A stretch of DNA of 33,359 nt from Bryobacterales bacterium. Its GTDB lineage: Bacteria; Acidobacteriota; Terriglobia; Bryobacterales; Bryobacteraceae. Below, in pieces: positions 13,003 through 21,695 of this stretch. Within the stretch, counting starts at the first letter, position 1; every line of letters begins with the position of its first letter. Where the stretch lies: contig PLEM01000111.1 of NCBI GenBank assembly GCA_003137035.1, positions 1 through 33,359 on the forward strand, given 5' to 3'. Both the position numbers and the translations under genes were made by a program. The notes beneath the pieces were generated by a model. It saw nothing but the letters and a program-made list of their open reading frames with translations, did not search any database and was not told where the DNA came from.

Positions 13003-13987
13003 TTTCACCGCCCTCCTGCTGTGCGCTTGCGCCGGCAGGCGGTCGCCAACGGAAGTTGTTGTGGTTTACGTGAGCCAGGACCGGGTCTTCGCGGAGCCCA
13101 TCCTCAAGGTGTTCGAAAAAGCGTCGGGCATCGCCGTCCAGGCGTTCTACGACAACCAGGATGCCAAGACCAGCCGGGTGATGGAGCGGCTGATCGCGGA
13201 GAAGGACAATCCGCGTGCGGACGTATACTGGGCGAGCGATCCGGTGCGCGCCGAGCTGCTGAGCCAGCAGGGGCTCTCCCAGCCATACCGTTCCACGAAT
13301 GCTGAGGGCATCCCGGATCAGTTCAAGAATCCGTCCGCAAATTGGACGGGATTCTCGGCGCGGGCTCGGGTGATCCTCGCCAAAAGCGGGCTCGCGGAGC
13401 GACCCGACAGCCTCCCGGCTTATACCGACCCTCACCATCGCGGCAGGGCGGTGATCGCCAACCCGCTGCAGGGCGCCAGCGCCATGCACATGGCCGCGCT
13501 GTTCAACCTCTGGGGCGACGAGCGCGCTCGCGCCTTCCTCGACGCGATGAAGAGGAACGGGGTCAAAATCTCCGCCAGCGACGCCGAAAGCGCCGACCTG
13601 GTGGTGTCTGGCGCCGCCGACTTCGCGCTGGTGGACAGCTACCACGCCGTCAGCCGGCTGCGACAGCACCACAATCTCGAGGTGATTTTCCCGGATCAGC
13701 ACGAGGGCGGAGGCGGCGTTCTGCTCATCCCGAACGCCGTGCTCATGGTCCGCGGCGCGCCCCACCAGAGAAATGCGCAAAGTCTGATCGACGACCTGCT
13801 TTCCAAAGAGACCGAACGAAGACTGGCCTTCGACGACTGCGCCCAGATCCCGCTGCACAGCGGCATCGAGACGCCTCCCGAGATCCGGCGGATCGAAGCG
13901 CTGCAAGTGATGAAGGTGGACTTCCCCGCCATCGCCCGCAAGATGCCAGAGATCCAGCCGCTGCTGAAGACCTGGGCCAGGCGCTGA
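12974..13987 (+). CDS. extracellular solute-binding lipoprotein (Fe3+/FbpA-type family), orphan
   Basis: TTG start; lipobox-like LLLCAC; VVVYVSQDRVFAEPILKVFEKASGIAVQAFYDNQDAKTSRVMERLIAEKDNPRADVYWASDPVRAELL; overlaps the upstream CDS by 29 bp. No permease or ATPase adjacent. Confidence 0.82.
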   Translation: MTTLRLLAVSFTALLLCACAGRRSPTEVVVVYVSQDRVFAEPILKVFEKASGIAVQAFYDNQDAKTSRVMERLIAEKDNPRADVYWASDPVRAELLSQQGLSQPYRSTNAEGIPDQFKNPSANWTGFSARARVILAKSGLAERPDSLPAYTDPHHRGRAVIANPLQGASAMHMAALFNLWGDERARAFLDAMKRNGVKISASDAESADLVVSGAADFALVDSYHAVSRLRQHHNLEVIFPDQHEGGGGVLLIPNAVLMVRGAPHQRNAQSLIDDLLSKETERRLAFDDCAQIPLHSGIETPPEIRRIEALQVMKVDFPAIARKMPEIQPLLKTWARR

Positions 13988-14025
13988 GTTGCAGGCCCCT
14001 GGGCAAGCTGTTGATGCTCCGCTTG

Positions 14026-14045
14026 GGACATGCTTCAGCTTGTCC
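14026..14045. repeat. degenerate CTTCAG-core hairpin
   Basis: GGACATGCTTCAGCTTGTCC: ggaca/tgtcc plus gct/agc around a TC loop with one t-t mismatch. Lies between the solute-binding and GH74-like genes. Confidence 0.55.
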
Positions 14046-14106
14046 TCTCCGGCGCTCCCAGGCGCAACGCAATGGTAAAATCGTAAATCCTGTGTGGGGA
14101 ATACTG

Positions 14107-16359
14107 ATGTCACTGAATAGAGTCGTTTTACTGGCCGTGCTGGCCACCACTGCATTCCAGTTCACGGGAACGGCGCAGAACCGGTCCGCGCCCTACCTCT
14201 GGAAGAGCGTGCAAATCGTCGGCGGTGGCTTTGTCGACGGAATCATCTTTCATCCCACCGCGAAAGGCGTGCGCTACTGCCGCACGGACATGGGCGGCGC
14301 CTATCGCTGGAACGACCAGATCAAGCGCTGGGAGCCGATCCTGGACTGGGTGTCCTACGAAGACCTCAACCTCATGGGAGTCGAGAGCATCGCGGTCGAT
14401 CCCGCGGATGCAAATCGCGTGTACCTGTCCTGCGGCACTTACACCGATCCGGATGTTCCCGATGGCGCGATCCTGCGCTCGAACGACCGCGGCAAAACCT
14501 TCCAGCGCACTAACGTCCCCTTCAAGATGGGCGGCAACGAGAACGGACGCGGCAACGGCGAACGCATGGCCGTCGACCCGAACGACGGCAAGGTCATCTA
14601 CGTCGGCACGCGCCTGGCGGGCCTGTGGAGGAGCACGGACCGCGGAGTGAAGTGGAGCAAGGTCGAGAGCTTTCCCGACCTGCTGGAACCGCGGCCCGCC
14701 AACGCCCCCTGGTGGAGCCGGCCAAGTGGCGTTGTGTTCGTGGTCTTCGATCCGCGCAGCGGTTCGCGCGGCAAGGCCAGCTCGACCATCTACGCCGGCG
14801 CTTCCGTGATGGGGAAGAACAACCTGTTCCGTAGCATCGATGGCGGCAGTTCCTGGCAGCCCGTCCCCGGCCAGCCGACCCAGTACCGGCCGAACCACGC
14901 CGTGCTGGCCTCCGACGGGACGCTGTACTTGTCCTACGGCACCGATCCCGGTCCGTGGCGGATGTCCAACGGCGGGGTGTGGAAGTTGAACACCGCGAGC
15001 AGCGAGTGGACCGAGATCACGCCGGACAAGCCTGCCCCAGATAGCGGGAAAGCGTTTGGCTACGCCGCGGTCGCCGTCGACGCGCACAACCCGCAAGTGG
15101 TCATCGCCAGTTCCTTCGGACGCCAGGGCAATGCCGGAGGCGAAGACATCTTCCGCAGCACCGATGGCGGCAAGACCTGGAAACCGGTCTTCGGCGGAGG
15201 CGGCACATTCGATTTCTCGCTCGCGCCCTACGTGGCCGCCACCGGGATTCATTGGCTGTTCGATATCGAGATCGACCCGCTGAATCCCGATCACGCGATG
15301 TTCACCACCGGTTATGGAGGCTATGAGACCTTCAACCTGACCGAAATGGATTCCGGCAGGCCGACCAGGTGGAGCGTCATGAGCACTGGAATCGAGGAGA
15401 CGGTCGCGTTGGACCTGCTCAGCCCTCCCCAAGGCGCGCACCTGCTCACCGCCGTCGGCGACTACGGCGGAGCCGTGCACTGGGACCTGGACAAGCCTGC
15501 GCCCGGAGGAAGTTACGATCACCCGCGTTTCGGCAACACCAATGGTCTGGCCTGCGCCGAGAACAAGCCCGAAATCATCGTGCGCGTGGGCCGGGCTGCG
15601 AACCGTCGCGAAGGCGCCAACATCGGCTACTCCCTGGATGGCGGCAAGTCCTGGCAGCCCACGGCGTCCACACCGAAACCCGGCGCCATGCTGGGGCACA
15701 TCGCGGTTTCTTCCGACGGAGCCACCTGGGTCTGGACGCCGGAGCGCAGCCCGGTCAGCTTCACCCGGGATCGCGGCGCAACCTGGGCGCCCTCGCAGGG
15801 AATCCCCAGCGATACGCGCGTCATTGCGGACCGCGTCAACCCGCTGAAGTTCTATGCGATCGCGTTGTTCGACGGGAAGCTCTTCGTCAGTACGGACGGA
15901 GCAGCGACGTTCGTCGCGCAGCCCCTGAATCTGCCCGACGGCCTGCCCAAGCGCCCCAGTCACCGCAACGAGCGCGGCGACGACCGCGGCGGGCAGGACC
16001 GCATCTACGCGGCTCCCGGTAGAGAGGGAGACCTCTGGCTGGCGGCCTTCAACGGGCTGTATCGCTCCACCAACACCGGAGCCAGCTTCGCCCGCTTCCC
16101 CCGCGTATCGGAGATTCACGGCTTCGGATTCGGCAAGGCCGCGCCCGGCGCTCCCTACCCGGCGCTGTATCTGATTGGCGTAGTGGACGGTGTCCGCGGC
16201 ATCTTCCGTTCCGACGACACCGCCCGAAGCTGGGTCCGCATCAACGATGACCAGCACCAATGGGGCTTGCTGCTGCACATCACCGGCGATCCAAAGCAAT
16301 ACGGCCGCGTCTATGTGGGCACGCACGGCCGCGGAACCCTCTACGGAGATCCATTGTAG
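14107..16359 (+). CDS. GH74 (xyloglucanase)-like / BNR-repeat secreted protein
   Basis: Signal peptide MSLNRVVLLAVLATTAFQFTGTAQ; IVGGGFVDGIIFHPTAKGVRYCRTDMGGAYRWN signature; multiple SxDxGxxW Asp-boxes. The ORF track start at 13342 reads through out-of-frame overlap. Confidence 0.82.
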   Translation: MSLNRVVLLAVLATTAFQFTGTAQNRSAPYLWKSVQIVGGGFVDGIIFHPTAKGVRYCRTDMGGAYRWNDQIKRWEPILDWVSYEDLNLMGVESIAVDPADANRVYLSCGTYTDPDVPDGAILRSNDRGKTFQRTNVPFKMGGNENGRGNGERMAVDPNDGKVIYVGTRLAGLWRSTDRGVKWSKVESFPDLLEPRPANAPWWSRPSGVVFVVFDPRSGSRGKASSTIYAGASVMGKNNLFRSIDGGSSWQPVPGQPTQYRPNHAVLASDGTLYLSYGTDPGPWRMSNGGVWKLNTASSEWTEITPDKPAPDSGKAFGYAAVAVDAHNPQVVIASSFGRQGNAGGEDIFRSTDGGKTWKPVFGGGGTFDFSLAPYVAATGIHWLFDIEIDPLNPDHAMFTTGYGGYETFNLTEMDSGRPTRWSVMSTGIEETVALDLLSPPQGAHLLTAVGDYGGAVHWDLDKPAPGGSYDHPRFGNTNGLACAENKPEIIVRVGRAANRREGANIGYSLDGGKSWQPTASTPKPGAMLGHIAVSSDGATWVWTPERSPVSFTRDRGATWAPSQGIPSDTRVIADRVNPLKFYAIALFDGKLFVSTDGAATFVAQPLNLPDGLPKRPSHRNERGDDRGGQDRIYAAPGREGDLWLAAFNGLYRSTNTGASFARFPRVSEIHGFGFGKAAPGAPYPALYLIGVVDGVRGIFRSDDTARSWVRINDDQHQWGLLLHITGDPKQYGRVYVGTHGRGTLYGDPL

Positions 16360-16403: not shown

Positions 16404-18476
16404 TCAAAACCCAACCGCGACCAGGTGCTGGCCGCGGGGAAGTGAGAATGTGAAGCGGGCGGGACCCTCGTCGAGCAGTTCGAAGGGCGCGCCAGCGCCA
16501 TCGATTTCCATCCGCAAGGGGCGCTTGTCCAGAACAGCCAGCGCGCGGGAGCCGCTCGAGTACGCGAACTCGAGGCCATTCGCCCGCACGGCCGCGGTCT
16601 TGAGGTCCCCGTTGAAATCCAGCAGGTGCGCGGGCGCCTGGCTCGCCGCTTTCTCTACCAGGTGAGTTCCCGGCGGCAGCCACAACGTCGACCCGTCGGC
16701 CGCCGGCCAGACCGCGCCGTCCACCAGAGCCGGACCGTCCCAGGCCATTCCCACCCCGAACCGCGATTCCACCGCCAGCCTACCGCCAATCGCCTCGACC
16801 CGATCTACCGCCGAGGCGGCCGCCGGCAGCAGGGGCAAATCCACCGGCGCAATCGAGTTCTCGAAATACAGGGCCACACGGCCGAAGCTCCGTGCGGCCA
16901 GGCTCACCAATTGGTACAACTCGGAGCCGGTCTGCTGCTTGGTGGGGTACACGTCCTGGTAACGCTCCACCACGTTGATATCGATGGCCAGCTTTTCCGG
17001 GCGGCGGGTGAGGGGCTGGTAGCGCCGGGCGATTTCCGGGTAGCGTTGCGGGCCGAGGTGCCAGATGGTGGCCGGGTCCTCCACCAAAAAAGTGAAATCG
17101 TGCTGCTCGAGCAGCGGGAGCAGCCGGGCGGCGTCCGCGCCGATCGCGTCGCGCATGCCGGGATCGAAGCGGTCGTCGACGTGGGTGAGCGTGAGGTCCA
17201 GATCGGGCCGCTGGCGGCGCACTGTCTCGATTTCGGCGATCCACTCGGTCTGCATGCGGCGCGCCAGTTCGGCGCGGAAGTCGAGGAACTGCCGAAGGCG
17301 CTCGGGGCCGGCCTCGGGCGCGCGAAATAGCGGCAAGGGATCGAACCCGCGGGCTTGCTGGAACTCGCGGCGCACGTCGTCGTTCATGGGCGTGAAGCGG
17401 GAAGGGTTCGAGGCGCCCTCCAGCGACTCGAAGTACAGCTCGGCCAGGTTGACACCGTCCCAGTCGAAACGGTCCAGCAACTCGCGCACACCGCGGGAAG
17501 CAGCGCGGAAGCAGTCGCGATTGGCGAGATTCATCAGGCGGCGCCAGTCCAGGCGTGCGTCCTGGAGCACGGCGGTTTTCTCCCGCCACTCCGGATGGTC
17601 GTCCCAGAACCGCTCGCTGACGTGCGGCAGCTCCAGCCAGGCGTAAACCAGGATGGCGTTGCGGTGGCAGACCTTAACCAGCTCGCGGAGCCAGGCGTCG
17701 CGCTGCGGATCGGGCTCGTAGTAGTGCCACGCCGCCACGTGGAGTGCGCCAATGCCGGCTTTCCGCCAGCGCGGGGCCAGGTACTCGAGATCGGCGCGCG
17801 CCCGATAGGAAGAGTCGAAGAACGCCCACAGCCGGCGCGAGCGGAAGGGTGCACTCAGGCCGAGGTCGGAAAGCGCGTGCAGCAGATACGGGAAACGCTC
17901 ATAACCGCGCGTGCCCGGGGACGTCGCGACCCACAGTATTCCGCCCGCGCCGTGCCGGAAGCCCGCCACCATCGGCGCACCCTCCCAGCGCTCGCGCACA
18001 AAGACCCGCGCCGCTTTCGGAACCTCATAAACCGGGAGCTCCATCGCGCTCTCCCAGATCACCGCCAGCTCCGGCCGCCGGAGATCCTCGAGGTTTTGCA
18101 CCCGCACCCGCCGGTTCGAGGGCCGGAATCCCAAAGCCTCGGCAACAGCGCTTTGGCCTTCCAGAATCACAAATGCACCGGAGGCGGCACGAGCCAGCCA
18201 ATGCTCCGCGGGGAGTGCCGCCCCGGCGCGCAACACGCAGACCTCGGCGCGCCCTCCGGCGGCCTGCGGTTGGAATCCAATCGATGACAGGATCTCCGAC
18301 CAACTCCCCGGCTCCGCGCCCACCACCTGGAAGAACAGGGGCTTGGCGGCCGCGCTGGCGGCGAGGGCACAGGCTAGGAGGGCGGCCTTCAGGCCGCGCC
18401 GGGCTTGAGCCCGGCTGAAGCCGGACTGCGGACTGAAGTCCGCCCCCCTCCCGTCAGCGAGCGGATTCGCGGTCAT
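16404..18476 (-). CDS. secreted TIM-barrel glycoside-hydrolase-like protein (GHL10/PgaB-C/PelA-type resemblance)
   Basis: ATG at 18476 (5 nt after the TPR-barrel stop); signal peptide core AALLACALAASAAA; 'ARADLEYLAPRWRKAGIGALHVAAWHYYEPDPQRDAWLRELVKVCHRNAILVYAWLELPHVSERFWDDHPEWREKTAVLQ' and 'DWDGVNLAELYFES'. Confidence 0.65.
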   Translation of the reverse strand: MTANPLADGRGADFSPQSGFSRAQARRGLKAALLACALAASAAAKPLFFQVVGAEPGSWSEILSSIGFQPQAAGGRAEVCVLRAGAALPAEHWLARAASGAFVILEGQSAVAEALGFRPSNRRVRVQNLEDLRRPELAVIWESAMELPVYEVPKAARVFVRERWEGAPMVAGFRHGAGGILWVATSPGTRGYERFPYLLHALSDLGLSAPFRSRRLWAFFDSSYRARADLEYLAPRWRKAGIGALHVAAWHYYEPDPQRDAWLRELVKVCHRNAILVYAWLELPHVSERFWDDHPEWREKTAVLQDARLDWRRLMNLANRDCFRAASRGVRELLDRFDWDGVNLAELYFESLEGASNPSRFTPMNDDVRREFQQARGFDPLPLFRAPEAGPERLRQFLDFRAELARRMQTEWIAEIETVRRQRPDLDLTLTHVDDRFDPGMRDAIGADAARLLPLLEQHDFTFLVEDPATIWHLGPQRYPEIARRYQPLTRRPEKLAIDINVVERYQDVYPTKQQTGSELYQLVSLAARSFGRVALYFENSIAPVDLPLLPAAASAVDRVEAIGGRLAVESRFGVGMAWDGPALVDGAVWPAADGSTLWLPPGTHLVEKAASQAPAHLLDFNGDLKTAAVRANGLEFAYSSGSRALAVLDKRPLRMEIDGAGAPFELLDEGPARFTFSLPRGQHLVAVGF
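18382..18443. repeat. cluster of four hairpins with CTTCAG/CTTGAG/CTGAAG cores, inside the 5' end of a CDS
   Basis: GCGGCCTTCAGGCCGC (18382-18397), GCCGGGCTTGAGCCCGGC (18398-18415), CCGGCTGAAGCCGG (18411-18424), GCGGACTGAAGTCCGC (18428-18443). Confidence 0.92.
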
Positions 18477-18480
18477 GGGC

Positions 18481-20478
18481 CTAGTGCGTGAATGCATACC
18501 AGAAACCGGCCCGCAGGTCGAAGAAGTTCGGCCGGCGCGGATTGTCGATGTTTCTCGTGTAGACGCCGCGCAGCAGACTCACCGAGAAGACCAGCGACGG
18601 CGGCAGCCCTGCCCACCGGAAGCGCAGCCCGGGCCCGAACTCCGCGAAATTGGCCCAGTACTGGCGCTTGATGTCCAAGGTGATGTTGGTGTTGGCGAAC
18701 AACTGCGAGCGGAGTCCGCCGATCGCCGGCAGCGTGTACCCCGAGCGGTTCTGCGAGGTGACCAGGAAATCGTTTTGAAAGCGGCTGACGAAGACTCCAT
18801 CGTCGGCGGTTTCGGCGAACCAGCCGGGGACTTCCGCGCCCAACAGCCGGCCGGCGCCGCGGCTGAAGGAGAGCCCGCCCCGGTAATCCGGAACCATCCG
18901 GCCCCCGCTGCGGTGCGCCAGGTAGCCGATGGCCTCTCCAGCCTCTCCCCAAAGCATGGCCCCGTGCCAGGAGCGGCTGGCAACGCCAAGGCCGAGGATG
19001 AACGCGCTCTCCGAGAGGTACTGCGGGAAGGCCTCCCGGGTGGTTTGCCGGGTGTCGCCGATGAAGCGCAGGGAGACGTACGGCCGGAACGGCAGCCGGC
19101 CCAGGCGAACCTCGGTCTTCACCTGGGCATAGGAGAAAACGTCGTGCCAGCGCGTCGAGAAGAAGGGGAAGAGCCAGGCCGTGGTCCGCAGGCGGGCGAA
19201 AGCGGGGCGGAGGTTCTGGTATGCCTTTTTGGCCTCCGCTGAAATTTCCGGGTCCGGGCTCTTCTTTGCCAGGCTGAACCAGCGTATGGCCTGGTCGTCC
19301 TGGCGGAGGAGGTTGTAGGTCTGGCCGAGCCGCAGCATGACCGCGAAATCGACCGGGTCGGCCTCGTGCGCCGACTGCAAGTACTTCAAGGCGTCCTTGA
19401 GGTACCCGGCGCGGTAGCTGCGCTCCCCCATTTCCCTGGCGCCGGGTTCGGGGGCCGGCTCGCGAGGACGGCGGCGAAGGTCCGCGGGCAGACGCAGGGC
19501 GGTGCGGACGCGCTCGGCCAGCTCGCTGTCATCGGACTTGAGAACCATGTCGAACAGCGGCATGGCCGCCACGCGGTCCCCGCGGGCCAGAAGCAAAAGG
19601 CCCAACTGGGCTGCCGACAACACATCCCCGGGCGCGAGCCGAATGATGATTTTGAACTCGGCTTCCGCCTCCTGGGGCCGGTGCATTTCCAGCAGCAGGT
19701 AAGCCAGCTCGCGGCGCAGCTCGAGGTTGCCGTCGTCCACCGCTAGCGCCTCTCGGAACTCGCTGACATAGGGATAGCGGGAGGGGAGCAGCCCGCGCGC
19801 CGTTTCGGCCGCCCGCGGCGAGGAGCTGCGGGAGGCCGCGAGCAGGGCGGCATTGGCCTCGGCGCTTCGGCCAAGTTCCTTCCACACCCGGCCCAGATCC
19901 ACCAGCAGGGAACGCTCGTTGGGGCGCAAGCGCCAGGATTGCCAGTAGTTCTCGGCGGCCAGGCCGAGCCGGTCGCGCTGCTCGGCTTGGCGGGCAAGCT
20001 CCAGCCGGGCGCTGTAGTTCCCGGGGGACTGGGCGACGACTTCGGACCAGCGGGCCATGCCTTCCTCCAGCGGGCGGTCGATATTCTGGAAGGCCTGCTC
20101 GGCCGTGGCGCGGATGGCGGCGTCCGGGGAGACCCGCAGCCGGTCGAAGCTGCGGCGAGCCTCCGCGGTGCGGCCCGTTTCATGGCACAGGAAGGCGTAC
20201 TCGAGGGCCGTGTGGAGGTCCGCGGGATCCAGGCGCACGACCTCGGCGAACTGGTCCCGGGCGGTTTCCGTCTGCCCGATCTTCAGATAGGTGTAGGCCA
20301 GGTCCTTGCGCAGGCCGGCCCGCCCAGGGGCCGCCCGGATCGCATCGGTGAGGCACAAGATGGCTGCGTCGTAGTCCCGCTCGCGAAGCGCCTGGTAGGC
20401 CTGCTGGGCCGGGTCGGGCGTCTGCGCCCCGGCCAGCGCCCCCAGACACACCGCCACCAGAATCGCGTCACGGACCAT
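18481..20478 (-). CDS. TPR-repeat protein with C-terminal outer-membrane beta-barrel (PgaA/PelB/NfrA-like architecture)
   Basis: Signal peptide MVRDAILVAVCLGALAGAQ; many TPRs (AYQALRERDYDAAILCLTDAIRAAPGRAGLRKDLAYTYLKIGQTETARDQF..); final ~230 aa of alternating amphipathic strands ending ..FFDLRAGFWYAFTH (terminal aromatic region). Confidence 0.75.
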   Translation of the reverse strand: MVRDAILVAVCLGALAGAQTPDPAQQAYQALRERDYDAAILCLTDAIRAAPGRAGLRKDLAYTYLKIGQTETARDQFAEVVRLDPADLHTALEYAFLCHETGRTAEARRSFDRLRVSPDAAIRATAEQAFQNIDRPLEEGMARWSEVVAQSPGNYSARLELARQAEQRDRLGLAAENYWQSWRLRPNERSLLVDLGRVWKELGRSAEANAALLAASRSSSPRAAETARGLLPSRYPYVSEFREALAVDDGNLELRRELAYLLLEMHRPQEAEAEFKIIIRLAPGDVLSAAQLGLLLLARGDRVAAMPLFDMVLKSDDSELAERVRTALRLPADLRRRPREPAPEPGAREMGERSYRAGYLKDALKYLQSAHEADPVDFAVMLRLGQTYNLLRQDDQAIRWFSLAKKSPDPEISAEAKKAYQNLRPAFARLRTTAWLFPFFSTRWHDVFSYAQVKTEVRLGRLPFRPYVSLRFIGDTRQTTREAFPQYLSESAFILGLGVASRSWHGAMLWGEAGEAIGYLAHRSGGRMVPDYRGGLSFSRGAGRLLGAEVPGWFAETADDGVFVSRFQNDFLVTSQNRSGYTLPAIGGLRSQLFANTNITLDIKRQYWANFAEFGPGLRFRWAGLPPSLVFSVSLLRGVYTRNIDNPRRPNFFDLRAGFWYAFTH

Positions 20479-20528: not shown

Positions 20529-21695
20529 ATGGAACCATTCCGGGGCGTGGACTTCCTTTCCATCGACGGCGAGTTCAGCGAGGAAGAGCTGCTGGTGCGG
20601 CAAACCGCCCGCCAGTTCGTGGACGACCGGGTCCTGCCGGTGATTCGCGACTGCTACCGGGACGCCCGCTTCCCGGCCGAGCTGGTCCGGGAAATGGGGC
20701 GGCTGGGGTTCCTGGGGGCCAACCTGGAAGGCTACGGCTGCGCGGGGATGAGCAACGTCGAGTACGGCCTGCTGATGCAGGAGCTCGAGCGCGGCGATTC
20801 GGGCATTCGCAGCTTCGTTTCCGTCCAGGGAGCGCTGGTCATGTACCCCATTCTGACCTTCGGCTCCGCCCAGCAGAAGGAGCGCTGGCTGCCTCGGCTG
20901 GCCACGGGGGAGGCGGTGGGCTGCTTTGGCCTTACCGAGCCGGACTTCGGCTCGAACCCCGCGGGAATGCGCACGCGCGCCCGGCGCGACGGCGGCGACT
21001 GGGTGCTCGACGGCGAGAAGACCTGGATCACCAACGGCACTGCGGCCGATGTGGCCCTGGTCTGGGCGCGGACCGAGGAAGGCTTCGGCGGGTTCCTGGT
21101 CGAGAAGGGCGCGCCCGGCTTCACCAGCTCGGATATTCACGGCAAGTGGTCCATGCGCGCCTCGGTGACCTCCAGCCTGTCGCTGGCCGATTGCCGCATT
21201 CCGGCGGAGAATCAACTTCCCGGCGCGCGGGGGCTGAAGAGCGCGCTCCTGTGCCTGACCCAGGCGCGCTACGGCATCGGTTGGGGAGCGATCGGCGCGG
21301 CCATGGACTGCTATGAGACCGCGCGGCAGTATTCCATCCAGCGCAAGCAGTTCAACGACCGGCCCATCGCCTCCCACCAGCTCGTGCAGGAAAAACTGGC
21401 CTGGATGATCAGCGAAATCAGCAAGGCGCAGTTGCTGGCCCTCCACGTGGGGCGCCTGAAGGACCGTGGAAAGGCCGAGGCGGCCCAGGTCTCCATGCTG
21501 AAACGAAACAACGTCGCCATCGCGCTGGAGTGCGCGCGCCTGAGCCGCGACCTGCTAGGGGCCAACGGAATCACCGACGAGTATCCCATCATGCGGCACC
21601 TGGCGAACCTGGAGACCGTGAAGACCTACGAGGGCACCGACCACATCCACGCGCTGATCATCGGCGAGGCCGTAACCGGGATCGCAGCATACTAG
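20529..21695 (+). CDS. acyl-CoA dehydrogenase, glutaryl-CoA dehydrogenase-like
   Basis: GCFGLTEPDFGSNPAGMRTRAR, GEKTWITNG, RYGIGWGAIGAAMDCYETARQYSIQRKQFN, LGANGITDEYPIMRHLANLETVKTYEGTDHIHALIIGEAVTGIAAY. Confidence 0.92.
   Translation: MEPFRGVDFLSIDGEFSEEELLVRQTARQFVDDRVLPVIRDCYRDARFPAELVREMGRLGFLGANLEGYGCAGMSNVEYGLLMQELERGDSGIRSFVSVQGALVMYPILTFGSAQQKERWLPRLATGEAVGCFGLTEPDFGSNPAGMRTRARRDGGDWVLDGEKTWITNGTAADVALVWARTEEGFGGFLVEKGAPGFTSSDIHGKWSMRASVTSSLSLADCRIPAENQLPGARGLKSALLCLTQARYGIGWGAIGAAMDCYETARQYSIQRKQFNDRPIASHQLVQEKLAWMISEISKAQLLALHVGRLKDRGKAEAAQVSMLKRNNVAIALECARLSRDLLGANGITDEYPIMRHLANLETVKTYEGTDHIHALIIGEAVTGIAAY

Follow-up and report, generated by a model that had tools for sequence, protein, structure and literature searches.

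Two overlapping genes on a contig of a Bryobacterales bacterium (phylum Acidobacteriota; GenBank assembly GCA_003137035.1, contig PLEM01000111.1, of which the whole stretch of 33,359 nucleotides was analyzed and is called the window here) appear, on balance, to encode the outer-membrane part of an Nfr (NGR)-type exopolysaccharide system that depends on a synthase and has its components scattered on the chromosome. Gene 1 encodes a protein with tetratricopeptide repeats (TPRs) and a predicted outer-membrane beta-barrel, gene 2 encodes a PgaB/GHL10-like TIM-barrel protein, and an orphan NfrB-like glycosyltransferase of family 2 (GT2) encoded elsewhere in the genome is a strong candidate for the distant synthase of the pair. 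This reading is built on the gene structures, the conserved overlapping pairing, the predicted folds, the co-occurrence with NfrB and the linkage of homologues to GT2 and WecB genes. We infer export, polymer identity and hydrolysis as follows: the NfrB-like inner-membrane enzyme would polymerize an amino sugar, probably an N-acetylhexosamine and perhaps N-acetylmannosamine supplied by WecB, and push the chain into the periplasm, where gene 1 would collect it by its TPRs and let it out by its barrel; and gene 2, co-translated with gene 1, would trim or release the chain there as a PgaB-like glycosidase.

The TPR-barrel gene and its overlapping partner

The product of gene 1 has a start resembling a signal peptide, judged by eye from the sequence only, which is followed by many TPRs (Pfam TPR_19, E=5e-22). 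Its AlphaFold2 model, computed from an alignment of 55 sequences (54 for gene 2), has a mean predicted local distance difference test (pLDDT) score of 91.6 and comprises helices at residues 23-427 and a barrel of approximately 12 strands, counted from the model, at residues 430-664, so that the C-terminal barrel proposed in a preliminary description of this DNA was recovered by structure prediction. No sequence match to the barrel was found in Pfam, NCBIfam or PDB, and the Foldseek matches of the entire model were dominated by TPR proteins. The NfrA_C domain (PF13283) was not matched by gene 1 or any barrel relative in Pfam searches that included the barrel alone, whereas the positive controls, E. 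coli NfrA (E=1e-67) and the canonical NfrA of a related genome, G336 (E=2e-16), were both detected. When the sequence of gene 1 was compared with those of PgaA and NfrA, the similarity was confined to the TPRs, and the canonical NfrA of G336 gave no match to the gene-1 barrel. Since the NfrA barrel has 16 strands (PMC8669472) and NfrA_C is missing, gene 1 was rejected as a member of the NfrA family; it was also rejected as a PgaA/BcsC-type porin, having neither 16 strands nor a match to any family profile. Thus, of the PgaA/NfrA-type architecture initially suggested, the TPR plus barrel layout holds and the 16-strand barrel and NfrA_C do not. On the strength of its predicted fold, gene 1 may be regarded as a candidate exopolysaccharide porin.

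Gene 2 was modelled with a pLDDT of 89.8 and a predicted template modelling (TM) score of 0.89 as a mixed alpha/beta domain, a (beta/alpha)8 barrel and a C-terminal sandwich. Among the 50 matches listed by Foldseek against PDB, the best target-normalized TM score belonged to the C-domain of E. coli PgaB (4p7q, 0.65), followed by Cwp19 (0.60-0.62), and the top ranks by E-value were multi-domain glycosidases. The window protein alone had no sequence match in Pfam, NCBIfam or PDB; in an alignment of 17 close relatives, however, 14 matched GHL10 (PF02638, best E=1e-7), 11 matched GHL6 (PF14871) and none matched a polysaccharide deacetylase domain. The GHL10 and GHL6 matches, which lie over the TIM barrel, are weak to moderate and neither family has a single known function. 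The likeness to the PgaB C-domain and GHL10 that had been noticed at the outset is therefore borne out, although an hhalign comparison of the gene-2 alignment (A4) with E. coli PgaB, a weak test because the target was a single sequence, was not significant.

The probable catalytic Asp of PgaB is D474 in the Bordetella protein (PMC5933820), and in E. coli the FHDD motif holds this region, the correspondence of the Asp being our own reading. By motif order, not by superposition, the DGVNLAE segment of gene 2 stands opposite DGILFHD of PgaB, which places Glu353 at the position of the catalytic Asp. Glu353 is invariant among close relatives of gene 2 and retained in all distant relatives except one, and it would be the likely catalytic acid. 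Considering that a deacetylase domain is lacking and that Glu353 replaces the catalytic Asp of the HDD motif, gene 2 was rejected as a member of PgaB/GH153; the hydrolase role proposed for it is drawn from its predicted fold.

Of 80 related loci retrieved, 74 contain the complete pair; the ATG of gene 2 lies exactly 17 nucleotides before the end of gene 1 in 73 of the 74. The window shares this conserved ATG, at 18497, and the distance of 4 nucleotides given earlier has to be withdrawn, as it relied on a start at Met8. The ATG falls within the codons for Tyr-Ala in the last strand of the barrel; because Tyr is encoded by TAT in only 35% of cases (628/1809) elsewhere in gene 1 across relatives, codon use does not explain the TAT that forms the overlap, the relatives not being independent and no p-value being claimed. 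Such an overlap suggests translational coupling of the two genes. In a survey of 21 neighborhoods, the window included, the genes were side by side in 19; they are separate in G016 and G057. Together with the overlap, this agrees with the conserved adjacency that had been predicted; no other neighbor was widely common in these loci. Almost all members of the family to which the pair belongs, probably Bryobacteraceae, hold both genes among the 61 related genomes discussed below.

One explanation of the same features is that gene 1 is a Slam-like protein exporter, also of TPR plus barrel layout, with gene 2 as its surface-displayed cargo. Slam genes sit next to genes for their cargo, and TPR_Slam was cross-matched by 15 of 16 gene-1 relatives (best E=1.5e-10). 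These matches are confined to the TPRs, which cross-match widely, the gene-1 barrel searched alone had no match to the Slam barrel, and a comparison of relatives revealed no conserved lipobox in gene 2, all of which makes this explanation very improbable.

Co-occurrence with a distant NfrB-like synthase

The NGR exopolysaccharide of E. coli is the product of NfrB, NfrA and WecB (PMC8669472, PMC8669469). The genome of the window (G000) encodes an NfrB on contig C398 that is 36% identical to E. coli NfrB over 554 amino acids (E=1e-102) and carries DxD-type, TED and QxxRW motifs; the MshEN tandem motif also aligns, and Pfam MshEN was not reported for this contig-truncated copy. In 61 related genomes, queried with the GT2 part of the homologue from a distant relative (G261, see below), both the pair and NfrB were found in 38, gene 2 only in three, NfrB only in two and neither in 18, NfrB thus being present in 40 of the 61. 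When 200 genomes of the order were queried with the window genome's own NfrB, 167 had both, eight NfrB only, eight gene 2 only and 17 neither (Fisher p=5e-13, not corrected for relatedness). All 18 genomes of another family (f3) were concordant, with both in three genomes of three genera and neither in 15, and a single genus of this family (g41) comprised one genome with both and two with neither. Outside the family designated f1, NfrB occurred in a class sample of 349 genomes only in G044, G057 and G261, all of which were barrel-positive. A WecB gene is present in the window genome (G000:C300), and the distribution of WecB in family f3 parallels the split of the pair and NfrB. As a control, another class of GT2 genes, of approximately 510-600 amino acids, was found in nearly all genomes with or without the pair and was rejected as the partner, because such near-ubiquity cannot explain the pattern of the pair.

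In genomes with the pair, nfrB is an orphan gene that does not form an operon with gene 1. The two are megabases apart in near-closed or single-contig genomes such as G318 and G327 and 12-14 kb apart in G352 and G358. The suggestion that a two-gene module might work with a distant synthase is supported by the co-occurrence with this unlinked NfrB-like GT2; the link is drawn from that co-occurrence plus a single case of adjacency in a distantly related genome. The orphan NfrBs grouped into a supported clade of a small tree, separate from those of E. coli, G261 and the canonical operon of G336. A canonical nfrBA operon encoding NfrA_C is additionally present in G336, which shows that gene 1 is not merely a local version of that NfrA. 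At L251 (5404-11336), a canonical nfrB-nfrA operon with MshEN and NfrA_C was observed, the genome concerned holding an orphan nfrB as well. The C-terminal MshEN region is missing in the orphan NfrBs of L216 (8978-10651), L220 (9131-10798), L222 (9348-10847) and L252 (7923-9380), which suggests a loss of control by cyclic di-GMP.

The adjacent example comes from G261. In a phylum sample of 247 genomes, a profile of the gene-1 barrel was matched outside the family of the pair by this genome alone, which belongs to family f8 and which we would guess to be Acidobacteriaceae-like. Its barrel protein is TPR-poor, has 434 amino acids and matches the gene-1 barrel at E=1e-18, and its gene overlaps the start of a gene whose product combines an NfrB-like GT2 with a WecB epimerase. 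A TPR-barrel gene that overlaps such an NfrB-like GT2-WecB fusion gene lies at L177 (8781-13423).

Comparison with known systems and alternative explanations

Compared with the E. coli NGR system (NfrB-NfrA-YbcH/WecB), the pair shares a predicted TPR plus barrel outer-membrane protein with a signal-peptide-like start, an NfrB-like GT2 with TED and QxxRW, WecB in most genomes, and overlapping genes. It differs in that the synthase is unlinked from the pore (an nfrB operon was seen only for the G261 relative), the barrel is smaller and without NfrA_C, a TIM-barrel protein follows the pore gene where E. coli has YbcH, and several orphan NfrBs lack MshEN. The order of a TPR porin gene and then a TIM-barrel gene, the barrel fold of the latter being nearest to the PgaB C-domain, recalls E. 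coli pgaA and pgaB; unlike pgaABCD, there is no pgaC or pgaD nearby and the porin barrel is smaller, and unlike PgaB, gene 2 has no N-terminal deacetylase. Given that the pair would work like Nfr or Pga export while lacking the defining features of NfrA, PgaA and PgaB, it may be described as a variant of a known export type.

In other Acidobacteriota, the region that shares homology with gene 2 (E values as low as 1e-130) forms the C-terminal part of proteins of approximately 1290-1660 amino acids that carry DUF2334 (PF10096), which we take to be deacetylase-like (L159, L160, L161, L162 and L136; split in L131). Unlike gene 2, these DUF2334-GHL10 proteins, where the contig shows it, adjoin a GT2 (PF13641), in two cases together with a WecB epimerase and a small barrel-like protein, and no TPR-barrel of the gene-1 type was seen beside them. 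Such loci would place the gene-2 domain in polysaccharide synthesis. Two of them (L160, 6944-15675; L162, 6985-15202) are candidate exopolysaccharide loci in their own right, with WecB, the fusion of DUF2334 to GHL10, GT2 and a small barrel-like protein for which Pfam gave no meaningful match; one such small protein (P0006) gave no match to the gene-1 barrel. The window genome itself has, on contig C45 (L131, 1053-6301), a DUF2334 gene, a TIM-barrel paralogue of gene 2, a QxxRW GT2 and an alpha/beta hydrolase as separate genes.

It is conceivable, if unlikely, that the pair exports and trims the polymer of one or more other synthases, such as that of the C45 locus or a Wzy-type system, and that the NfrB correlation is a lineage effect: most positives belong to one family, so that co-occurrence is inflated by descent, and a GT2 locus containing a paralogue of gene 2 is present in G000, G001 and G037. 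However, C45-type loci are rare among genomes with the pair, and their GT2 and DUF2334, which are absent from most such genomes, were rejected as general partners; moreover, NfrB and the pair agree throughout the 18 genomes of family f3, including the split within one genus, and in the isolated G261. Another explanation, to which we give still less credence, is a small polysaccharide-use module in which gene 2 is degradative and gene 1 is an uptake or docking porin for environmental sugars. The TIM-barrel and sandwich of gene 2 match secreted glycosidases of GH66 and GH20 by fold and a GH74/BNR-like gene adjoins the pair, but that neighbor is not conserved, no SusC/D or transporter is conserved nearby, TPR-barrel proteins with such a layout are known to serve in export, and the distribution of the pair tracks a synthase.

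An Nfr-type export system remains the reading we favor, and several observations weigh against it. The pair and NfrB are not physically linked, and their co-occurrence could reflect shared ancestry, most positives being of one family; poor quality does not account for all of the discordant genomes, as G315, which is 98% complete, has NfrB without the pair. Four family members (G012, G018, G024 and G028) have no WecB, and MshEN has been lost in several orphan NfrBs. The gene-1 barrel has approximately 12 strands and resembles neither NfrA_C nor PgaA nor any other family in sequence, gene 2 has Glu where PgaB has Asp and is without a deacetylase, and the signal peptide of the window's gene-2 copy is disturbed.

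More tentatively, and with slightly less confidence than would make it an even case, the pair may represent a novel branch of Nfr-type systems, near-universal in its family, in which a new 12-strand TPR porin family replaces NfrA, a co-translated PgaB-like hydrolase has been gained, and the synthase has been orphaned; the polymer would then be a main surface glycan of these soil bacteria. Literature searches linking NfrB with Acidobacteria found nothing, which is not proof of novelty, and those linking DUF2334 with exopolysaccharide likewise found nothing.

Features of the window and significance

Both minus-strand reading frames of the preliminary description were confirmed, and the coordinates of the pair are collected below. 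The short palindromes in gene 2, which resemble repetitive extragenic palindromes (REP), add approximately 30 residues to the window protein relative to its homologues, and its N-terminus was modelled at very low confidence, making the export of this copy uncertain. Convergent with the pair lies a BNR/Sortilin-type propeller gene (13342-16359, + strand), the GH74-like neighbor of the preliminary description, which is real but is not conserved beside the pair and has no supported role; its family matches begin near residue 323, and its true start is probably far downstream. An acyl-CoA dehydrogenase gene (20529-21695, + strand) is divergent from the pair. Such a gene was found near the pair in five of the 21 loci, and an apparent homologue in G029 adjoins a GT2 protein of 1110 amino acids (L192).

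Table 1. Positions of the gene pair and its parts in the window
Feature	Position	Strand	Basis
Gene 1 (P0001), TPR + predicted outer-membrane beta-barrel protein, 665 aa	18481..20478	-	Open reading frame (ORF), Pfam TPRs, AlphaFold2, kept in relatives
Gene 1, helical TPR solenoid, residues 23-427	19198..20412	-	Pfam TPR, AlphaFold2 model
Gene 1, predicted C-terminal barrel, ~12 strands, residues 430-664	18487..19191	-	AlphaFold2 model; barrel-only alignment A5
Overlap of genes 1 and 2, 17 nt, gene-2 ATG within last gene-1 codons (TGG T-ATG-C...TAG)	18481..18497	-	Sequence; 73/74 relatives
Gene 2 (P0002), PgaB/GHL10-like TIM-barrel glycosidase-like protein, 697 aa, putatively exported	16404..18497	-	ORF, family Pfam, AlphaFold2, Foldseek
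Gene 2, short-palindrome cluster (REP-like), in frame in signal-peptide region	18382..18444	-	Sequence, comparison with relatives
Gene 2, N-terminal mixed alpha/beta domain, residues 55-222	17832..18335	-	AlphaFold2 model
Gene 2, (beta/alpha)8 catalytic-type barrel, residues 223-560	16818..17831	-	AlphaFold2 model, Foldseek
Gene 2, Glu353 codon, invariant in close relatives	17439..17441	-	Alignment; PgaB catalytic Asp position by motif order
Gene 2, C-terminal beta-sandwich, residues 566-697	16407..16802	-	AlphaFold2 model

Exopolysaccharide systems are usually recognized as operons around a synthase. In the present case, the export genes and the synthase gene appear to lie megabases apart yet to be inherited together, and operon-based surveys would miss a system of this kind. 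If the proposed reading is true, it would provide a defined surface-glycan pathway for a common family of soil bacteria, extend the NGR pathway beyond the groups reported in its 2021 survey, and add a further porin family, one without any profile.

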